NCBI GenBank assembly: GCA_017483765.1
Contig: JAFUVE010000077.1
Coordinates: 1 to 50,196 of the forward strand
Direction of reading: 5' to 3'
DNA from: Bacteroidaceae bacterium
Lineage (GTDB): Bacteria > Bacteroidota > Bacteroidia > Bacteroidales > Bacteroidaceae
Length of the DNA: 50,196 bases
Position 1 is the first letter of the stretch. Each line of letters begins with the position of its first letter. This document shows positions 274 to 9,330 of the stretch, in pieces. Under the pieces are notes generated by a model. That model saw nothing but the letters and a program-made list of their open reading frames with translations, ran no database searches and had not been told where the DNA came from. The translations under genes were made by a program, and so were the position numbers.

Positions 274-3200
274 ATGAGACGAATATTATTGATAATCATG
301 CTGCTATTCTCAGCATATCTCAGCCTGCCGGCGCAGAACTTTCTCGACTTCTACCGCAACGGCACTGTAACCCAGAGCATCCCCGTGGCGGACGTTGACC
401 AGCTGCGGGTGAGCAAGCCCACATCATCGGGGCGCAACGTCAACATCTACCGTGACGGCCGCCTATGGCTGACTTACGACATCTCCAATGTTGACAGCAT
501 CAAGGTGTATCGCCCCACAGAGGAGCAACTGGTGTATCTCGGCATCGTCGGGTTCAACCAGGATCTCTACATACAGCCGTTCGGCATCCTTGCCCAAAAC
601 ACGGCAGACACCTTCAGTATTTTTGTGAACAACCTCAATTACCGTGACGGTACCATCCTCTACTATGCGGTGGACAACGCGCTCGACATGCTGTCCAACT
701 TTAAGTTCAACACTTCGCTGAGCAGCGTCAACCTCATCACGTTCACCGACGGACTCGACCAGGGTTCGCTGATGATGAACAGCAACTTCACCACGGAGAA
801 CGCCTACCTCAACGCATTGAGCGGAAGAATTCTGTCCATGAAGGTGGCGGGTCATCCGCTGACCGCCTATTCGCTCGGCATGCGGGGCAACGACGTGAGC
901 GACAAGACGATGTTCGCGACGAACCTTCGCAAGCTGGCAAGCTCAGCCGACAAGGCCACGGAGGTGAGCAGCATCTACGACGTGGAGAGTCAGCTTCAGG
1001 AGATAGCCGACCAGATTATCAGCGTGAACACACGCAAGAGCATCAGCGTGCGGATTCCTGGTCCCGCCACGGGCACCACCGTCCGTTTCGTGTTCGACGG
1101 CAAGAATCCTGAGTCGAGCAGCCTGTATATCGAGGGTGTGTTCAACATGAACGACATGTCGCTCACGAAGATTCGCTACCAGGGCATCAAAGCCTCGTCG
1201 GGATCCGTGGTGAAAGGCACGCGCGACGGCATCTTCGTCACCTTCAAGTTCACCGACCTGCAGCTTGCTGACGGCAGCGGGCTGTTAGACACTTCGTATA
1301 TCAGGCAATACAACAAAGCATCAGGCTCCACCACCTGGCAGGTGAACTCGGAGTTCTCGCCCGACAGCAACGTGCAGACCAGCGTCACCTATTCTGGCTG
1401 CGCCATCATGCTCGTGCTCGACTGCTCACGCTCCCTGGGCTCCGACTTCAGCCGCATGCAGGGCTACGTGGTTGACTTCATCAACAAAATCGCACGCAAC
1501 ACGGCGGACTTCGAGGTGCTGGCTCCCACAGACCTGACAGCAAAGCTGAATTACAGCGGCAGCAAATTAGGGGTCGAGCTGTCATGGCTCGCGTCCAAGC
1601 ATGCGGACAGCTATATCGTTTACCGCTCGAAAAGCGCATCCGGAAGCTATACGAAAATTGCGGAAAACATCACATCGACCAGATGGAATGACCCGTCACC
1701 GCTGTCGGGCATGAACTACTACAAGGTCGTGGCGGTCAGCGCAGGGCTGCAGAGTCCGGAGAGCAACGTTGCGTCTGTGAATTATGCAGTTGAGCAGCCC
1801 GAGAATCTGTCAGCTAAACTGGCTGAGCGCAATGGGAAGCTGGTTGTCGATTTAACTTGGTCTGCATCCCAGAATGCACAGAGTTATCTGGTCTATCGTT
1901 CAAGCAGTGCTTCAGGAACTTATACCAAGGTCGGTAGCTCAACCACAAACACATGGACGGACTACCATGCGTCGTCAGGCATGAATTACTATAAGGTGGA
2001 AGCCTTAGGCTACGGGTTAGGTAGCGGCATGACCTCCTATGTCTCTGTGAACTACAAGTTGTCGCCGCCAGAGAATCTGCGGGCAAGCTTGTCGGAGACA
2101 GAGGGTGTGGTGCTCTCCTGGGAAGCTTCCCTCGGTGCGCAGAGCTACACCATTTACCGTTCCACCAGCTCTTCCGGCACATACAAAGTGGTGGCGGAGG
2201 GTGTCACGTCAACCAGATGGGCAGACCCTTCTCCTTTGTCAGGCACAGCTTACTATAAAGTGGAGGCTGTGGGCAGAGATATGGTCAGCGAGAAGACTTC
2301 CTACGCATCGGTAAGCTTCTCAATAGCCACGCCGGCAGGCTTGTCTGCCGCCTTTGTGGAGAACAAGGGAATCGTTGTGTCCTGGACTGCGTCCAAATAT
2401 GCGCAGTATTACAAGATTTACCGCTCCAGCAGTACTTCTGGCACTTACAGCTTAGTTGCTGACAGCATCTCTTCCACATCTTGGACAGACCCGTCACCGC
2501 TTTCTGGCAAGAATTACTATAAGGTGGCAGCTTCGGGTTACGGTATAACCAGCTATCGTAGTTCAGAAACTTCAGTAAACTTTACGTTAGCAGTGCCAAC
2601 GGATTTAACTGCAAGCATGACAGAGCAGGAAGGAAAGCCAGTTGTGTCTTTGTCCTGGACTGCCTCCCAATATGCGCAGAGCTACACTGTTTACCGTTCG
2701 GAAAACTCTTCAGGAACTTACTCTGTGGTTGCGGAGAATGTCACATCCAACTCATGGACAGACCTGTCTCCTTTATCCGGCATGAATTATTATAAGGTGG
2801 CTGCATCTGGATATGGTATAAACAGTAATCAAAGTTCTTACGCATCTGTAAGCTTTACAATAGCTGCCCCGACAGGTTTATCTGCTGCCTTTGAGGAGAA
2901 CAAAGGAATTGTGGTGTCCTGGACAGCCTCCCAGTACGCGCAGAGCTACACGGTTTACCGTTCAAGCAGTTCTTCTGGTACATACAGATACAGTGTGGTT
3001 GCAGAGAACGTCACATCCACCTCATGGACAGATTCTTCTCCGCTTTCTGGCTATAATTACTATAAGGTGGAAGCTTCTGGTTACGGCTTAACCAGCTCCC
3101 AAAGTTCCCCAACGTCATTGAATCTCACGTTAGCCGCGCCAACTGATTTGTCGGCAAATATGATTGAGCGTAACGGAAAGTTGGTAGTTGATTTGTCCTG

Positions 3201-4620
3201 GACTGCCTCTCAGTACGCGCAGAGCTACACGGTTTACCGTTCAAGCAGTTCTTCTCGCACGTACAGAGTGTTAGCCGAGAACATCACTTCCACCTCTTGG
3301 ACAGATTCTTCTCCGCTTTCTGGCTATAATTACTATAAAGTGGCTGCTTCGGGCTATGGCTTAACCGGCTCCCAAAGTTCCCCAACGTCATTGAATTTCA
3401 CGTTAGCCGCGCCAACTTTTTTGTCGGCAAGCATGACTGAACGTAATGGAAAGTTGGTTGTTGATTTGTCATGGAGAGCCTCCCAGTATGCGCAGAGCTA
3501 CACGGTTTACCGTTCAAGCAGTTCTTCTGGTACATACAGTGTGGTTGCAGAGAACGTCACATCCACCTCATGGACAGATTCTTCTCCGCTTTCTGGCAAT
3601 AATTACTATAAGGTGGAAGCTTCTGGTTACGGCTTAACCAGCTCCCAAAGTTCCCCAACGTCATTGAATTTCACGTTAGCCGCACCAACTGATTTGTCGG
3701 TAAATATGATTGAGCGTAACGGAAAGTTGGTTGTTGATTTGTCCTGGACTGCCTCCCAGTACGCGCAGAGCTACACGGTTTACCGTTTGGAAGACTCTTC
3801 AGGTACTTACTCTGTGGTTGCTGAGAACATCACTTCCACCTCATGGACAGATTCTTCTCCTTTATCGGGTAATAACTTTTACAAAGTCGTTTCAGTAGGT
3901 TACGGACTGGCCAGTGATAGTGCTTTTGCTTCCATTATCACTTCACCGGAAACATTTACGGTCAAAGGTGTACAGTTCACGATGATGCCAGTTGAAGGCG
4001 GCACATTCCAGATGGGTTCTGAAACGGGTGACAGTGATGAGAAGCCCGTTCACGAGGTGAAGCTGAACGGCTTCTCCATCGGTCAGACAGAGGTAACCCA
4101 GGAGCTATGGGAAGCCGTGATGGGCACAAATCCGTCGTACTGGAAGGGCTTGAAGTTGCCAGTAGAGAAAGTCTCTTGGGACAACTGCCAGACGTTCATC
4201 ACCAAGCTGAACTCGTTGACCGGCCAGCAGTTCCGTCTGCCCACGGAGGCGGAGTGGGAGTATGCGGCACGTGGCGGCAATCAGAGCAAAGGCTACACCT
4301 ACAGTGGCAGCAATAATCTTGAGGATGTGGCATGGTACACGTCGAACAGCGGTAGCGAAACCCACAACGTTGGCACTAAGTCTCCGAACGAACTTGGCAT
4401 CTACGACATGAGCGGCAATGTGTGGGAATGGTGTCAGGACTGGGTTGATAGTTACAGTTCATCCTCTCAGACAAATCCGGCAGGCCCTTCATCGGGCTCC
4501 CGCCGCGTGATCCGGGGCGGAAGCTGGCGCAGCAGCGTCGGGGGCTGCCGTGTGGCTTACCGCAGCTACTGCTGGCCAGACAGCCGCTACGACGACCTTG
4601 GCTTGCGTCTTGCCCTTTAG
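274..4620 (+). CDS. Secreted FnIII-repeat protein with FGE/C-type-lectin-fold DGR variable domain
   Basis: The 1448-residue product starts with an SpI-type signal peptide (MRRILLIIMLLFSAYLSLPAQ). Residues about 85-410 look like divergent von Willebrand A material, with a TFTDGLD segment and a DxSxS motif (DCSRS near residue 385) placed late. Nine fibronectin III repeats of about 85-90 residues follow (about 417-1227), several nearly identical at DNA level. The C-terminal 220 residues are a formylglycine-generating-enzyme/SUMF1 domain, which has the C-type lectin fold used by many DGR targets (MGSETGD, RLPTEAEWEYAARGG, GNVWEWCQDW, RGGSW). The last 42 codons form the DGR variable region. The inferred role is a surface or secreted binding protein with diversified ligand specificity. 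Catalytic formylglycine generation is unlikely for this architecture, but this is inference. Confidence 0.9.
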   Translation: MRRILLIIMLLFSAYLSLPAQNFLDFYRNGTVTQSIPVADVDQLRVSKPTSSGRNVNIYRDGRLWLTYDISNVDSIKVYRPTEEQLVYLGIVGFNQDLYIQPFGILAQNTADTFSIFVNNLNYRDGTILYYAVDNALDMLSNFKFNTSLSSVNLITFTDGLDQGSLMMNSNFTTENAYLNALSGRILSMKVAGHPLTAYSLGMRGNDVSDKTMFATNLRKLASSADKATEVSSIYDVESQLQEIADQIISVNTRKSISVRIPGPATGTTVRFVFDGKNPESSSLYIEGVFNMNDMSLTKIRYQGIKASSGSVVKGTRDGIFVTFKFTDLQLADGSGLLDTSYIRQYNKASGSTTWQVNSEFSPDSNVQTSVTYSGCAIMLVLDCSRSLGSDFSRMQGYVVDFINKIARNTADFEVLAPTDLTAKLNYSGSKLGVELSWLASKHADSYIVYRSKSASGSYTKIAENITSTRWNDPSPLSGMNYYKVVAVSAGLQSPESNVASVNYAVEQPENLSAKLAERNGKLVVDLTWSASQNAQSYLVYRSSSASGTYTKVGSSTTNTWTDYHASSGMNYYKVEALGYGLGSGMTSYVSVNYKLSPPENLRASLSETEGVVLSWEASLGAQSYTIYRSTSSSGTYKVVAEGVTSTRWADPSPLSGTAYYKVEAVGRDMVSEKTSYASVSFSIATPAGLSAAFVENKGIVVSWTASKYAQYYKIYRSSSTSGTYSLVADSISSTSWTDPSPLSGKNYYKVAASGYGITSYRSSETSVNFTLAVPTDLTASMTEQEGKPVVSLSWTASQYAQSYTVYRSENSSGTYSVVAENVTSNSWTDLSPLSGMNYYKVAASGYGINSNQSSYASVSFTIAAPTGLSAAFEENKGIVVSWTASQYAQSYTVYRSSSSSGTYRYSVVAENVTSTSWTDSSPLSGYNYYKVEASGYGLTSSQSSPTSLNLTLAAPTDLSANMIERNGKLVVDLSWTASQYAQSYTVYRSSSSSRTYRVLAENITSTSWTDSSPLSGYNYYKVAASGYGLTGSQSSPTSLNFTLAAPTFLSASMTERNGKLVVDLSWRASQYAQSYTVYRSSSSSGTYSVVAENVTSTSWTDSSPLSGNNYYKVEASGYGLTSSQSSPTSLNFTLAAPTDLSVNMIERNGKLVVDLSWTASQYAQSYTVYRLEDSSGTYSVVAENITSTSWTDSSPLSGNNFYKVVSVGYGLASDSAFASIITSPETFTVKGVQFTMMPVEGGTFQMGSETGDSDEKPVHEVKLNGFSIGQTEVTQELWEAVMGTNPSYWKGLKLPVEKVSWDNCQTFITKLNSLTGQQFRLPTEAEWEYAARGGNQSKGYTYSGSNNLEDVAWYTSNSGSETHNVGTKSPNELGIYDMSGNVWEWCQDWVDSYSSSSQTNPAGPSSGSRRVIRGGSWRSSVGGCRVAYRSYCWPDSRYDDLGLRLAL
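4494..4620 (+). other. DGR variable region (VR)
   Basis: These 127 bp align without gaps to 6050-6176. I count 22 differences, and 20 are at positions that are A in the other copy; the two exceptions are a T-to-A and a C-to-G. The 13 AAC (Asn) codons of the template become Arg, Ile, Arg, Ser, Gly, Tyr, Ser, Tyr, Cys, Ser, Tyr, Asp and Asp. The last 25 bp before and including the stop are identical and nearly free of A, as expected of the initiation-of-mutagenic-homing segment. The region encodes the end of the lectin-fold domain, where exposed residues lie. Confidence 0.93.
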
Positions 4621-4675
4621 TTCCCACTTCAAAAAAGTATGGAGCTCAAAAAAAGAAATTAAAGCCGGATTGCAA

Positions 4676-4725
4676 GTCCGTGAGTAGGGAAGCCCAAAAT
4701 TTAAAAGGGCTTCCCGCGAACGGAC
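4676..4725 (+). other. Nested hairpin just downstream of the VR
   Basis: A perfect 9-bp stem GGGAAGCCC (4687-4695) with GGGCTTCCC (4707-4715) encloses an AT-only 11-nt loop. An outer 6-bp stem GTCCGT (4676-4681) with ACGGAC (4720-4725) encloses it. Known DGRs need a hairpin or cruciform shortly after the VR for efficient retrohoming, and no equivalent occurs after the TR. It lacks a trailing T-run, so it is a poor intrinsic terminator. It begins 56 nt after the stop codon, further away than in phage BPP-1. The rest of 4726-4897 is AT-rich with no other recognisable feature. Confidence 0.6.
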
Positions 4726-4897
4726 GAGCAAGACGGCGGAAAGATGTTATAAAGTACAACATCACAATCGTTTGCTTATAATATTATGAATAAATTTTTT
4801 TCGTTTTTTCTATTATGTTGTCATTAATCATTGTGTCTTCTCTCTTAAATGTTTTTAAGTGTTTATTATCAAATGTAATTCAAAAAAAGTGAAAAGT

Positions 4898-5659
4898 ATG
4901 AATAAAAAACAAGAAACAAATCATTATCTTTTAGAAAAAGATTTTACTGAAAAATTGGAAAAGGAATTCTCTGAGCTTTGGAATAATGTGAAGGATGGCA
5001 AGATAGCGAATATAAAGTTGAAAAGTGGGAAGCTTTCTCAAAAAATGACTGTGGGTAAAAGAAAAACTACTATTATCTTCTTGAAACAAAATGGTGACAA
5101 AGGAGATGTTGTAACATTAGACTCATTAATGAAGTTGTGTTATAAAAAACAAATCTTTACCATTGAAAAATTAAAAACTGTTTCTTCTACTGATAGATCG
5201 GTGGTGCAAACGAATACTTCTATTAGATGGGCTGTTTTATATTATATTCTTAGTCAAATAGATGATGCTTCAAACGACATTGAATTCGGTGACGAAGATA
5301 TTTCTAAAGGATATTGGGAAGGTGATGTTAAAACAATAAGGGTAAATATATATGAAAGAACACGTAAATATAAAAATGAATTCCTCAATTCGGGAAAAGC
5401 TTGCATTTGTTCTATTTGTAGTTTTAATTTTGAAAAGGTATATGGAAAAAGAGGAAAAAATTTCATCCATCTTCATCATTTAGTTCCACTGCATGAAATC
5501 AAACAGGGACACGAAGTGAAATCGGATGAACTAATTCCAGTTTGCCCAAATTGTCATGCCATGTTGCATCGTGGTAAAGAATTGCTATCTCCAGACGATT
5601 TGAAAAAAAAGATGAAAGAAGTGAAATCATTGAAAAACAGCCAAAATGATATGTCTTAA
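4898..5659 (+). CDS. HNH endonuclease-domain protein
   Basis: The 253-residue product has an unrecognised N-terminal part rich in Lys and Glu. Its C-terminal HNH nuclease domain shows CSIC, HLHHLVPL, ELIPVCPNCHAMLH, that is two CxxC zinc pairs framing the His-His and Asn-x-x-His core. I chose the ATG at 4898 over an in-frame GTG at 4859 because the upstream residues look non-coding. The gene is clearly more AT-rich than the VR gene before it and PBP1A after it, which suggests horizontal origin. It sits between VR and TR. Whether it takes part in retrohoming, is a hitchhiking homing-type nuclease, or is a defence nuclease cannot be told from sequence. Confidence 0.82.
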   Translation: MNKKQETNHYLLEKDFTEKLEKEFSELWNNVKDGKIANIKLKSGKLSQKMTVGKRKTTIIFLKQNGDKGDVVTLDSLMKLCYKKQIFTIEKLKTVSSTDRSVVQTNTSIRWAVLYYILSQIDDASNDIEFGDEDISKGYWEGDVKTIRVNIYERTRKYKNEFLNSGKACICSICSFNFEKVYGKRGKNFIHLHHLVPLHEIKQGHEVKSDELIPVCPNCHAMLHRGKELLSPDDLKKKMKEVKSLKNSQNDMS

Positions 5660-5724
5660 TTAAAGTAATCAAGGAACAACTTGAAATAAAATAACCGAAT
5701 GGTAAATTATAAAAATAAAAAAGT

Positions 5725-5949
5725 GTGAAAAAGTGCAAATATCTTATTGTGGGTAAGTATCCAGAAGGAAGACCCAAATACACTTGTGAACTTATAACTG
5801 ACAATTCAAAAGTCTTTTTGGATATAAAAGGTGAATATGAAATAAAATACCCGGGGTGTAATATGGCTAAAAACGGAGAATGTTTTTTTGTGCGTCAAAA
5901 TGAGGAATTTGAAAATTGTCCATATTTTGAACCTGAAAAACAAGATTGA
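5725..5949 (+). CDS. Small cysteine-containing hypothetical protein
   Basis: This 74-residue ORF starts at GTG and has four cysteines (KKCKY, TCEL, GCNM, NCPYF) plus ECFF, a spacing compatible with a small metal-binding fold. I do not recognise the family. It shares the AT-rich composition of the HNH gene 65 bp upstream and probably entered with it. It ends 100 bp before the DGR template repeat, a position where DGR cassettes often carry a small accessory gene (avd). It is not basic or helical enough to be called an Avd homologue. The start codon is uncertain. Confidence 0.5.
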   Translation: MKKCKYLIVGKYPEGRPKYTCELITDNSKVFLDIKGEYEIKYPGCNMAKNGECFFVRQNEEFENCPYFEPEKQD

Positions 5950-6049
5950 TTGATTTTAAAAAACGCGACTGTATCTGCGCTTTCATCCGAAAGGCTGATG
6001 TGGAGGCATTTGAAAGAAAATCCACCATAATAAGGGACTGTATCCGTAT

Positions 6050-6176
6050 GGGCTCCAACCGCGTGAACCGGGGCGGAAGCTGGAACAACTACGTCAGGAA
6101 CTGCCGTGTGGCTAACCGCAACAACAACACGCCAGACAACCGCAACAACAACCTTGGCTTGCGTCTTGCCCTTTAG
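6050..6176 (+). other. DGR template repeat (TR)
   Basis: This 127-bp copy of the VR carries AAC at 13 codons where the VR has other codons, which is the adenine-rich signature of a DGR template. It reads in the same frame as the VR and ends with the same stop, but lacks the rest of the target gene. It starts abruptly at GGGCTCC, and identity ends at the TAG apart from chance. The TR lies 1.43 kb downstream of the VR in the same orientation, as in classical cassettes. No reverse transcriptase follows; the next gene is PBP1A. Confidence 0.92.
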
Positions 6177-6420
6177 CTCCATATTCAATATTCAGCCGAA
6201 AAAAACGGAACATCATCCGGAAAAAGGCAACTCAACGAAGTGGGAACAGGATACATATCCCGACCGCCAACTGTTTATTTTATTGGTGGCGAATTGGCAG
6301 GACTTGTCCTGCAAAGCTCCGGAGACTGTAGTAGGCAACTCGTTTTAGCCGAACCTTTCTCCGGAGTTCGTTTTCACTCTTCACTTAATTTCATACTCTT
6401 TTCCCCATAAAATATAATTT
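6177..6420 (+). other. Hairpin-rich segment downstream of the TR
   Basis: No gene is supported here. The stretch contains several inverted repeats: GGATA/TATCC near 6250, GCAGGAC (6297-6303) with GTCCTGC (6306-6312), and CTCCGGAGA (6317-6325) with TCTCCGGAG (6358-6366). It may be the structured 3' part of the TR transcript, which DGR reverse transcriptases need next to the template, or a terminator region. An open frame runs from the TR stop to about 6410 without any start codon, and I treat it as chance. Confidence 0.35.
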
Positions 6421-6432
6421 ATACCCATCTCT

Positions 6433-6466
6433 TTTGCAAATCTTTCACGGAAAATTCGTATTTTTG
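6433..6466 (+). promoter_or_regulatory. Bacteroidetes-type promoter of PBP1A gene
   Basis: TATTTTTG at 6459-6466 fits the -7 consensus TAnnTTTG, and TTTG at 6433-6436 lies 22 nt upstream as a -33 element. Transcription would start near 6473, about 27 nt before the ATG at 6500. Confidence 0.5.
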
Positions 6467-6499
6467 CATAAAATTGCATAATTTCGGATTTTTCTGCGT

Positions 6500-9004
6500 A
6501 TGGCACATCATCATCACCATAGACACTACAGTCACGGAAACTACAAAAAGAAGACATCATTCTGGAGCTGGTACTGGGATCAGTACCGAGGACGATGGTA
6601 TCAGAGGATCATCACGCCCATCGCCACATTCTTCATTCTTTTCTTCCTCTTTATGGCGGCGGTCGACGTCAACTTCCTCTGGCTATTCGGTAAGTCGCCG
6701 TCTCTCAGCGAACTCGAAAACTCTAAATACAGCGAGGCATCCCTCATCTACAGCAGCGACAACGTACTCATCGGAAAATATTTCACCGAGAACAGAACTG
6801 CAGTGCCATACGAGGATATCTCACCTTATGTCGTGCAGGCGCTCATCAGCACCGAGGACGAGCGCTTCTACCATCATAACGGAGTTGACTATCAGGGTAT
6901 TCTTGGTGCCATCAAGGACATCGTAAAGGGTAACCCCCGCGGAGCCAGCACCATCACACAGCAGCTGGCGAAAAACATGTTCAAGATGAGGCTCGAGAAG
7001 AACACCAACGGACTCCTGTGCAAGGTGCCGGTGCTCAAGACCCTCATCATGAAGGCCAAGGAATGGAATATGGCATACAAGATAGAGAATATGTACACCA
7101 AGAAGGAAATCCTCACACTCTATCTCAACACCGTGGATTTCGGCAGCAACGCATACGGAATCAAGACCGCAGCCAAGACCTACTTCAATGCAAAACCGAA
7201 AGAACTCACCATCGAGCAGGCGGCCACCCTCATCGGACTCCTTAAGGCTACGACCATGTACAACCCCATGATCAACCCCGACAACAGCCGGCAGCGGCGC
7301 GACATCGTCATCGACAACATGTACCGGCACAACATGATATCCCTGTCTGAGGCGGAGGAAGCTAAGGCCAAGCCCATAGAACTGCACCTCAACATCGAGA
7401 ACGCATTCGACGGACAGGCGCAGTATTTCAGGGAGGCGGTCAAGGACTATCTCAGGGAATGGCTCGCATACAACGAATACAACCTCTATGAGGACGGGCT
7501 TAAAATCTATACCACCGTCGACACGCGAATGCAACGCTATGCGGAGCAGGCTGTGGCCAAGCAGATGAACTACCTGCAGGGACAGTTCGACAAGCACTGG
7601 AACGGACAGGCTCCTTGGAGAGACAAGAACGGACGTGTCATCAAGAACTTCATCGAAAACGTGGCAAAGCAGTCCACTTACTACAAGGAACTGCAAGCCA
7701 GATATATGGACACGCCGGACTCCATCGACTACTACATGAACCTGCCGCATAAGGTGAAACTCTTCTCCTACACCGGAAGCAACCGCTCAGTGGAGAGAAC
7801 CATGTCGGCGATGGACTCTATCAGATATATGCTCAAATATCTGCATTGCGGATTCGTAGCCATGGAGCCCCAGTCAAGCCATGTCAAGGCATGGGTGGGC
7901 GACGTCGATTTCTCTACTTGGAAATACGACAAGGTCAGGTCACCACGACAGCCGGGATCAACGTTCAAGCTCTTTGTCTACGGAGCGGCTTTCGAACTCC
8001 TCGGACTCGTGCCGATGGACCGCAGGATCGACACCGCGAAACCAATCAAATACAAAGACTCTAACAACCACACAAACACATGGAGGGTCAGAAACTCGGG
8101 AGGACACAGCAGCGAGCAGCAGGTAACACTTAGGACGGCTTTCGCCAAGTCCATCAACACCATAGCGGCTAGGCTCGGACTCGAAGTCGGGACATCAAAC
8201 CTCATCACAATTGCGAAACGCATGGGAATCAAGTCCGTATTGGAGCCTACACCGGCCATCGCCCTCGGATCTTGCGAGGTGTCCCTCATCGACATGGTCG
8301 ACGCATATGCTTGTGTCATGAACGAAGGAATGCGTAGACCGCCGATTCTTGTCACTCGCATCGAGGACCGAGAAGGCAACGTCGTATACGATGCCGACAG
8401 GGATGTGGACCCCGCAGAGAAGGCCATTTCATACCGAACTTCGTATTTCCTACAGCAACTGCTGCTTGCCGGAACACACGACCAGGGGGGAACGTCAAGA
8501 CGTATTTGGCAGTTCGTCGACTCCACGAAGTGCGATGTGGGAGGAAAGACTGGAACCACTTCCAACTACTCCGACGCATGGTTCATCGGATGCACGCCGA
8601 ACCTCGTTGGTGGGGCGTGGATTGGTGGGGAATACCGAAGCATCCACTTCCGCAACGGCTCATTAGGGCAGGGGGCCAGGACATCGCTGCCTGTATTCGG
8701 GTATTTCATGAGCAAGGTGCTTGCGGACTCCGATCTCTCTCAATATCGGGCTCGATTCAAACCGCCACGCAACTTCATCGCGCCATCCTCGTACTCCAAC
8801 TACACTCCGCCAACCCGTGAAGATCTCGGCGACTATTACGACGACCCACAACCCTCTCACACTCCTCAGCCACCTACTCCTCAGTACCGTCCCGACACCA
8901 CCAGACGGCGCCAACCACAGCAGGACATCTCTCAGGGTATCGACGTCGGAAACGCAGAGGAGCAGCAACCTGTCGAAACACAAGTGGAAGAAGATTTCTT
9001 CTAA
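6500..9004 (+). CDS. mrcA: Class A penicillin-binding protein 1A
   Basis: This 834-residue bifunctional peptidoglycan glycosyltransferase and D,D-transpeptidase builds and crosslinks the cell wall in the periplasm. The N-terminus is cytoplasmic and His-rich (MAHHHHHRHYSHGNYKKK), followed by a membrane anchor at about 36-62. The GT51 domain shows the catalytic STEDERFYHHNGVD near residue 118 and GASTITQQLAKN. The transpeptidase domain has the SxxK motif (GSTFK, near 487), SxN (KSINT) and KTGTTSNYSDAW. A Pro/Gln-rich tail of about 80 residues ends the protein. The length is typical for Bacteroidetes PBP1A. The start is fixed by a promoter 34 bp upstream. It appears to be monocistronic. Confidence 0.95.
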   Translation: MAHHHHHRHYSHGNYKKKTSFWSWYWDQYRGRWYQRIITPIATFFILFFLFMAAVDVNFLWLFGKSPSLSELENSKYSEASLIYSSDNVLIGKYFTENRTAVPYEDISPYVVQALISTEDERFYHHNGVDYQGILGAIKDIVKGNPRGASTITQQLAKNMFKMRLEKNTNGLLCKVPVLKTLIMKAKEWNMAYKIENMYTKKEILTLYLNTVDFGSNAYGIKTAAKTYFNAKPKELTIEQAATLIGLLKATTMYNPMINPDNSRQRRDIVIDNMYRHNMISLSEAEEAKAKPIELHLNIENAFDGQAQYFREAVKDYLREWLAYNEYNLYEDGLKIYTTVDTRMQRYAEQAVAKQMNYLQGQFDKHWNGQAPWRDKNGRVIKNFIENVAKQSTYYKELQARYMDTPDSIDYYMNLPHKVKLFSYTGSNRSVERTMSAMDSIRYMLKYLHCGFVAMEPQSSHVKAWVGDVDFSTWKYDKVRSPRQPGSTFKLFVYGAAFELLGLVPMDRRIDTAKPIKYKDSNNHTNTWRVRNSGGHSSEQQVTLRTAFAKSINTIAARLGLEVGTSNLITIAKRMGIKSVLEPTPAIALGSCEVSLIDMVDAYACVMNEGMRRPPILVTRIEDREGNVVYDADRDVDPAEKAISYRTSYFLQQLLLAGTHDQGGTSRRIWQFVDSTKCDVGGKTGTTSNYSDAWFIGCTPNLVGGAWIGGEYRSIHFRNGSLGQGARTSLPVFGYFMSKVLADSDLSQYRARFKPPRNFIAPSSYSNYTPPTREDLGDYYDDPQPSHTPQPPTPQYRPDTTRRRQPQQDISQGIDVGNAEEQQPVETQVEEDFF

Positions 9005-9051
9005 ACCCTCGAAACCTCGAAATCCTCAGTCCGCATGGCCTCTTTAAACTT

Positions 9052-9330
9052 ATCTAAGCCTTGCGCCATCCAGTGTGGCAGAACTTTTGTCTCTTCCCCA
9101 CAAAGGCTCCCGGTGTCGGGTGTTCATCCGCATGGCCTCTCTTTATCTAAGCCTTGCGCCATCCAGTGTGGCAGGACTTTTGTCTCTTCCCCACAAAGGC
9201 TCCCGGTGTCGGGTGTTCATCCGCATGGCCTCTCTTTATCTAAGCCTTGCGCCATCCAGTGTGGCAGGACTTTTGTTTCGTCCCCACAAAGGCTCCCGGT
9301 GTCGGGTGCCCATCCGCATGGCCTCTTTAA
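9052..9330. repeat. Three tandem copies of a 93-bp repeat
   Basis: Units begin at 9052, 9145 and 9238, each with ATCTAAGCCTTGCGCCATCC, then CCCACAAAGGCTCCCGGTGT, and end in CATCCGCATGGCC. Because 93 is a multiple of three, the array is open in one frame, but it has no protein-like features and I do not call a gene. A fourth single copy lies at 24490-24564. The array fills the 357-bp gap between the PBP1A and helicase genes (9005-9361), with only a partial unit (9031-9051) and a leader tract otherwise. Confidence 0.9.

Follow-up and report, generated by a model that had tools for sequence, protein, structure and literature searches.

We analyzed a 50,196-nucleotide stretch of DNA (the window) from a Bacteroidaceae bacterium, which carries the repeat pair of a diversity-generating retroelement (DGR) with a nuclease gene in the place expected for the reverse transcriptase (RT). 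The window spans all of contig C30 in an assembly of 3.13 Mb in 105 contigs, estimated to be 69.9% complete, and the contig starts 273 bp upstream of the gene for the DGR target. Read along the forward strand, the locus consists of this target (variable protein) gene, whose 3' end is the variable repeat (VR), an inverted repeat that can fold into a hairpin, an open reading frame (ORF) for a putative HNH nuclease, a 74-codon ORF, a putative leftover of an RT gene and the template repeat (TR). All genes and both repeats lie on the forward strand.

The VR (positions 4494 to 4620, stop codon of the target gene included) and the TR (6050 to 6176) are 127 bp each and align without gaps. An initial annotation, made by a model from the letters alone, had placed the two copies exactly there, and a repeat finder also recovered the pair (family D8). 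Our recount gave the same 22 differences, 20 of them at the 34 adenines of the template (12 to G, 6 to T and 2 to C). The other two are at one T and one C (T41A and C81G), as the annotation had it, and the bias toward adenine has a P value of 2.4e-12 (hypergeometric). When the TR is read in the frame of the target gene, it contains 13 AAC codons, each of which is changed in the VR, again in agreement with the earlier claim. The identical stretch at the 3' end was found to be 26 bp, 1 bp longer than had been reported. The TR (58.3% GC) is itself in an open frame with a weak match to the FGE-sulfatase domain (E = 2.9e-6).

The target gene (positions 274 to 4620; 52.3% GC) encodes a protein of 1,448 amino acids with a hydrophobic N-terminal stretch, by eye a candidate signal peptide and the basis for the annotation's description of the protein as secreted, followed by nine FnIII-like repeats of about 91 amino acids and a C-terminal FGE-sulfatase domain (PF03781, residues 1236 to 1447; E = 5.1e-46) of the C-type-lectin fold. 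The best solved relative of the C-terminal domain is the DGR variable protein of Treponema denticola (2y3c; E = 8e-48), and the gene that ends in the VR thus encodes a variable-protein fold. The nine repeats were described in the initial annotation as FnIII repeats. Their number held when the translation was counted by eye, and most were also shown by the repeat finder, but their FnIII identity is tentative: Pfam fn3, run on two single repeats, gave E = 0.037 for one of them, below the cut-off. We also looked for a second target. A paralogue of the target with Dockerin and FGE-sulfatase domains lies on another contig of the same genome (C86; locus L006, 9248 to 10081); it differs from the TR at 31 positions, 17 of them adenines, and with this pattern, which lacks adenine specificity, it was not counted as a second target of the window TR.

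To see what such a locus looks like elsewhere in the family, we searched 399 family genomes with the TR, of which 20 matched, the source genome included. Twenty regions from 17 of the 19 other TR-matching genomes were examined, together with genome G189; G388 was left out. An alignment of six RTs from these regions gave a profile (A1), which in turn matched 90 of the 399 genomes at E = 1e-20 or better, eight of them below 1e-120 (G247, G169, G278, G199, G281, G315, G228 and G189). The RT regions of G378 and G019, which by eye are phage borne and have a target of another kind, were not used. All eight relatives have an HRDC-like ORF upstream of the RT (Pfam HRDC, PF00570, in five of five scanned). 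The HRDC gene overlaps the RT gene in relatives, and the TR adjoins or overlaps the 3' end of the RT gene in eight of eight. The VR and a hairpin lie upstream of this HRDC-RT-TR block in seven; in G247, the contig ends before the VR. The RTs are 327 to 342 amino acids long, or 371 in G278, where the frame continues through the TR (locus L049, contig C90, oriented positions 4530 to 5645), such that the TR would be the translated C-terminal tail of the RT. YMDD and GNLTSQ motifs were present in the six RTs checked; we take the latter to be typical of DGR RTs.

In the VR/TR pairs of seven relatives, 96 of 101 differences fall at template adenines (the counts omit G247 and a second, more distant FGE paralogue in G315). 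The VR-to-TR spacing is 1,556 nt in the window versus 1,690 to 1,761 nt in G169, G199 and G315, with similar values in the other relatives. Comparison with the seven relatives also bears on the two differences outside template adenines. TR base 41 is a T in the window TR and an A in the window VR and in seven of seven relatives. Because the window VR and all of these relatives keep the A, the window TR was most simply mutated at this base after the last transfer from TR to VR. C81G was considered as another lost template adenine and ruled out, the same position being C in six of the seven relatives and G in one.

The inverted repeat downstream of the VR (positions 4664 to 4737; inner stem 4687 to 4695 with 4707 to 4715, loop AAAATTTAAAA) is far more stable than expected by chance (z = -6.36 for the fold; none of 200 shuffled sequences equally stable). 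A hairpin is found at the equivalent place in seven of seven relatives tested, with z scores from -2.80 to -10.89. The A/T-rich loop word is nearly common to the window (4696 to 4706) and two of the relatives, reading AAAATTCTAAAA in G199 (locus L040) and AAAACTTAAAA in G278 (locus L049); the stems differ. No hairpin follows the TR in positions 6177 to 6300 (z = 0.18), and the sequence further downstream, 6280 to 6410, folds with z = -2.95.

Between the target gene and the TR, the composition of the window changes abruptly. Positions 4621 to 5949 have a GC content of 30.8%, against 52.3% in the target gene, and the change is sharp at both edges. The HNH ORF and the 74-codon ORF within this segment occupy the place of HRDC and RT in the relatives, and no accessory protein (Avd or HRDC) was found at the locus. 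Searches with six RT queries gave no match in the window better than E = 0.44 outside the VR, the TR and the short tail described next.

Directly 5' of the TR, the frame from 5946 to 6049 resembles the C terminus of an RT. When a profile of eight RT C termini was compared with 1,579 fragments of the window, the frame ending in the TR ranked first (E = 0.009; next, 3.7). A 16-residue core of the tail likewise scored highest at this place among 100,298 positions (20.0; the next, 12.5, is on the opposite strand at the same place), and true RTs score 19.4 to 24.7 in seven of eight cases and 7.1 in one. The core lies 59 nt from the TR, versus 47 to 80 nt in the eight relatives. In tblastn searches, residues 304 to 332 of the 337-residue RT of G247 aligned to 5958 to 6044 (E = 0.47), and the joint RT-TR frame of G278 aligned to 5943 to 6173 (E = 1.5e-8, mostly through the TR). 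We take 5958 to 6049, a stretch of about 30 codons that is collinear with the TR, as a putative remnant of the 3' end of an RT gene.

The larger ORF of the AT-rich segment (4898 to 5659, from an ATG; 253 amino acids, or 266 from a GTG at 4859) matches the HNH family PF01844 (E = 1.2e-5), Escherichia coli McrA (6ghc; E = 4.4e-5) and, over its last third, the PADLOC type IV enzyme model mREase_IV (E = 1.2e-6). With both an HNH motif and similarity to McrA, the protein appears to belong to the McrA-like HNH restriction nucleases and may cleave modified DNA. Its N-terminal 120 residues or so had no match in any family searched. The 74-codon ORF (5725 to 5949, GTG start) had no match in Pfam, NCBIfam or PADLOC; comparison with the family DGR loci and the HNH loci gave no homologue either, except for one 15-residue match at E = 0.077.

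Homologues of the HNH protein occur in 15 other genomes of the 399, in contexts that include a DpnII restriction-modification cluster (methylase and nuclease genes) and an EVE fusion. None of these 15 loci contains a TR-like sequence, apart from one 12-bp chance match, and in the eight loci that were refetched with longer flanks (4 to 13 kb, as the contigs allow) there was neither an RT nor a TR nearby. Conversely, a search of 24 other family loci and of 80 TR-like loci from a wider survey (104 in all, with one contig counted twice and not all of them DGRs) gave no match to the HNH protein at E = 1. A plasmid search returned 190 records, all below 60% identity and none covering 80% of the query, which is uninformative on the origin of the gene. 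Border repeats that might mark an insertion were limited to uninformative A-rich matches of 8 to 10 bp, a DNA search of the phage collection with positions 4400 to 6500 had no match, and Rfam gave for 4400 to 6600 a single match below the gathering score, which we took as chance. The simplest reading is that the HNH gene would be an imported restriction-type gene without a role in retrohoming.

We then asked whether an RT encoded elsewhere could serve the locus. No A1-type RT was found in the source assembly at E = 10; the sole match was a group II intron RT/maturase (contig C87, locus L001) that is split into two ORFs by a TGA within the profile match. RVT_1 matches elsewhere in this assembly were two: this intron RT and an AbiP2/DRT-type defense RT (contig C90; locus L007, 5576 to 7210). 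Among 12 genus mates, none had an A1-type RT at E = 1e-20. RVT_1 matched in two of them, a retron-type RT in G002 and a phage-type DGR RT in G008, neither of which is A1 type. The latter (RVT_1 E = 3.5e-9; 1.5e-22 when scored alone against A1) is on a phage-like contig, where the DGR spans about 5774 to 9118 (contig C18, locus L199), with an RT of 411 amino acids, an ORF of 138 amino acids at the position of the accessory gene and a TR/VR pair in which 19 of 19 differences are at coding-strand adenines (best 90-bp stretch). Since RVT_1 detected this DGR RT, the search is able to find such enzymes, and it saw none in the incomplete source assembly. The genus mate G003 has three TR-matching sequences but no RVT_1 match, no A1-type RT and, by eye on ORF maps, no TR.

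TR/VR pairs that lack an RT next to them do exist, as a minority. A scan for matches to the translation of the window TR, with one genome per species, gave at least 585 stretches with the pattern, of which 415 were confirmed and the best 80 kept. Of these 80 TR-like loci, 64 had an RT match at E = 1e-5 and 16 had none within the sequence retrieved. In six of the 16 (L135, L136, L156, L158, L161 and L171), the TR-like sequence has a partner differing almost only at adenines; several of the six end at contig edges, and most of the remaining ten look like ordinary paralogues. In one of the six, L158 from Accumulibacter, there are several VRs, and one ORF by eye resembles an HRDC-type accessory gene. 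In the open-licence literature we noticed no paper on replacement by an HNH gene within a DGR, and the available portions of PMC8144416 and PMC6642488 hold no description of such an arrangement. Elsewhere in the window, directly downstream of an ORF at 6500 to 9004, lie three tandem 93-bp repeats (9050 to 9328) that are 94 to 99% alike to the first.

The locus is a DGR remnant, with a VR bearing the DGR footprint and a local RT that is broken or missing. The initial annotation was right that a C-type-lectin-fold target carries a genuine footprint, but the interval it called a DGR (4494 to 6176) is an incomplete one, from which the RT and HRDC-type genes are missing. We consider it probable that this was an HRDC/RT-type chromosomal DGR whose target is TvpA-like, that it lost its enzyme genes when a segment with the HNH gene replaced them and that it no longer diversifies itself. 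In the past, RNA of the TR would have been reverse transcribed with errors opposite adenines, as the footprint shows, and the cDNA would then have replaced the VR beside the hairpin; the individual steps are drawn by analogy with Bordetella phage BPP-1. Later, to judge from the relatives, the AT-rich segment with the HNH gene and the small ORF would have replaced HRDC and all of the RT except its last 30 codons or so. The VR, hairpin and TR persist at a locus presumably unable to diversify itself. Current activity from the window locus alone is unlikely because the RT and HRDC-type genes are replaced and only the RT tail is left, and the VR is probably frozen now.

Several observations weigh against this interpretation. 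Only two of the six full-length RTs aligned at the tail in tblastn, the E value of the tail profile is modest, and the score of the 16-residue core is somewhat favored because the window sequence was known when the core was delimited. The two non-adenine differences are within the range of RT-bearing relatives (0 to 2 each), so an extended period of decay is not strongly indicated, and the idea of decay through an excess of such differences is unsupported. With a count in the relatives' range, either the loss is recent or diversification lasted until recently. Of the eight pairs compared, the window VR also has the highest share of changed adenines (20 of 34), a value compatible with an element that was very active in the past and equally with one still active today. 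Finally, a remote RT could be missing from our search because of the incompleteness of the assembly.

The last two points touch the most serious rival, that the locus is still being diversified in trans by an RT (and HRDC) from another part of the genome. No damage is evident in the TR, VR or hairpin, pairs that differ almost only at adenines and have no RT in the sequence retrieved do occur in the survey (6 of 80 loci, several at contig ends), and the available part of PMC3521204 reports that one RT can serve distal targets. The missing 30% of the genome leaves room for such an enzyme, but the search found no A1-type RT in the assembly or the 12 genus mates, the only other TR-matching sequence in the genome has no adenine-specific pattern, and TR base 41 has been altered since the last transfer. 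Diversification in trans therefore seems rather unlikely to us. Since no RT was found and base 41 has changed, a frozen VR seems likelier than a trans-driven one. The HNH protein and the 74-residue product could also be working parts of a new type of DGR, for example if the HNH enzyme nicked the target and a trans-acting RT copied the TR. Both ORFs do sit exactly between the VR hairpin and the TR and in the same orientation, and the endonuclease that may cleave DGR targets awaits identification according to the accessible portion of Guo et al. (2011). This proposal is nevertheless highly improbable, given that the HNH protein had no match in the 104 other loci, that its 15 homologues in the bacterial family lie away from DGRs in the sequence examined and that the broken RT tail points to an earlier RT removed at the same place. 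It is also very unlikely that selection maintains a minimal RT-less cassette of target, hairpin and TR, with a remote RT and the HNH protein as a target-cleaving or accessory part.

An assembly artefact or a mixture of strains would offer another account, in which the HNH segment belongs to a different place and this locus carries an intact RT in the strain. The assembly is incomplete and in 105 contigs, and the GC content changes abruptly at both edges of the segment. Two independent misjoins in one locus of a 50-kb contig would be needed, however, the VR-to-TR spacing is natural, and no leftover contig with a matching RT exists in the assembly; we regard an artefact as most improbable. An ordinary partial duplication of the 3' end of the target gene, with no retroelement history, could draw on the open frame of the TR and its weak FGE-sulfatase match. 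It is practically negligible as an explanation in view of the adenine-specific differences (P = 2.4e-12), the orthologous TRs beside an RT in eight relatives and the hairpin and RT tail that are still in place.

The locus can be viewed as a natural RT-null DGR in which the TR, VR and target hairpin are kept. As such, it allows the rates of VR freezing and TR decay after enzyme loss to be tested cleanly, and continuing variation of the VR, if it occurs, would indicate an RT in trans. The locus also illustrates that a strong adenine bias in a VR/TR pair is no proof of a working element, and the enzyme genes need to be checked.

The window resembles the DGR of T. denticola and those of its family relatives (G169, G199, G278, G281, G315 and others) in the fold of the target and the AAC-rich TR, and shares with the family DGRs the adenine-specific TR/VR differences and the hairpin after the VR. 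HRDC-type DGRs have an RT and HRDC, whereas the window lacks both and has the HNH segment instead. In T. denticola, the HRDC accessory genes overlap the RT (from the available text of PMC4891356), as in the family relatives; the gene order differs, being VR-HRDC-RT-TR in the family, while the same partial source places the accessory gene of T. denticola between TR and RT. The HNH protein has its HNH domain in common with McrA-like and other modification-dependent nucleases, unlike its matchless N-terminal part. The BPP-1 DGR transfers TR to VR with adenine mutagenesis and has a hairpin after the VR, like the window; in the accessible part of PMC3240598, such hairpins matter for target recognition in BPP-1, and its genes are avd and brt rather than HRDC. 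The phage hairpins described there have stems of 7 to 10 bp, 4-nt GRNA loops and a distance of 4 to 34 bp from the VR, whereas the window hairpin starts 43 bp after the VR and is multitiered, with an 11-nt AT loop. RT-less DGR remnants are already known. T. denticola isolates without the core DGR (neither RT nor TR) retain the target, as far as PMC4891356 was available, and in Pseudogulbenkiania NH8B distal targets lie beside a strongly mutated RT, with another RT in the genome (PMC3521204, in part). In those cases, as here, a diversified target outlives the lost or broken local RT. Unlike them, the window keeps the TR, VR, hairpin and RT tail while a foreign segment takes the place of the enzyme genes, and such a swap in place is unusual.

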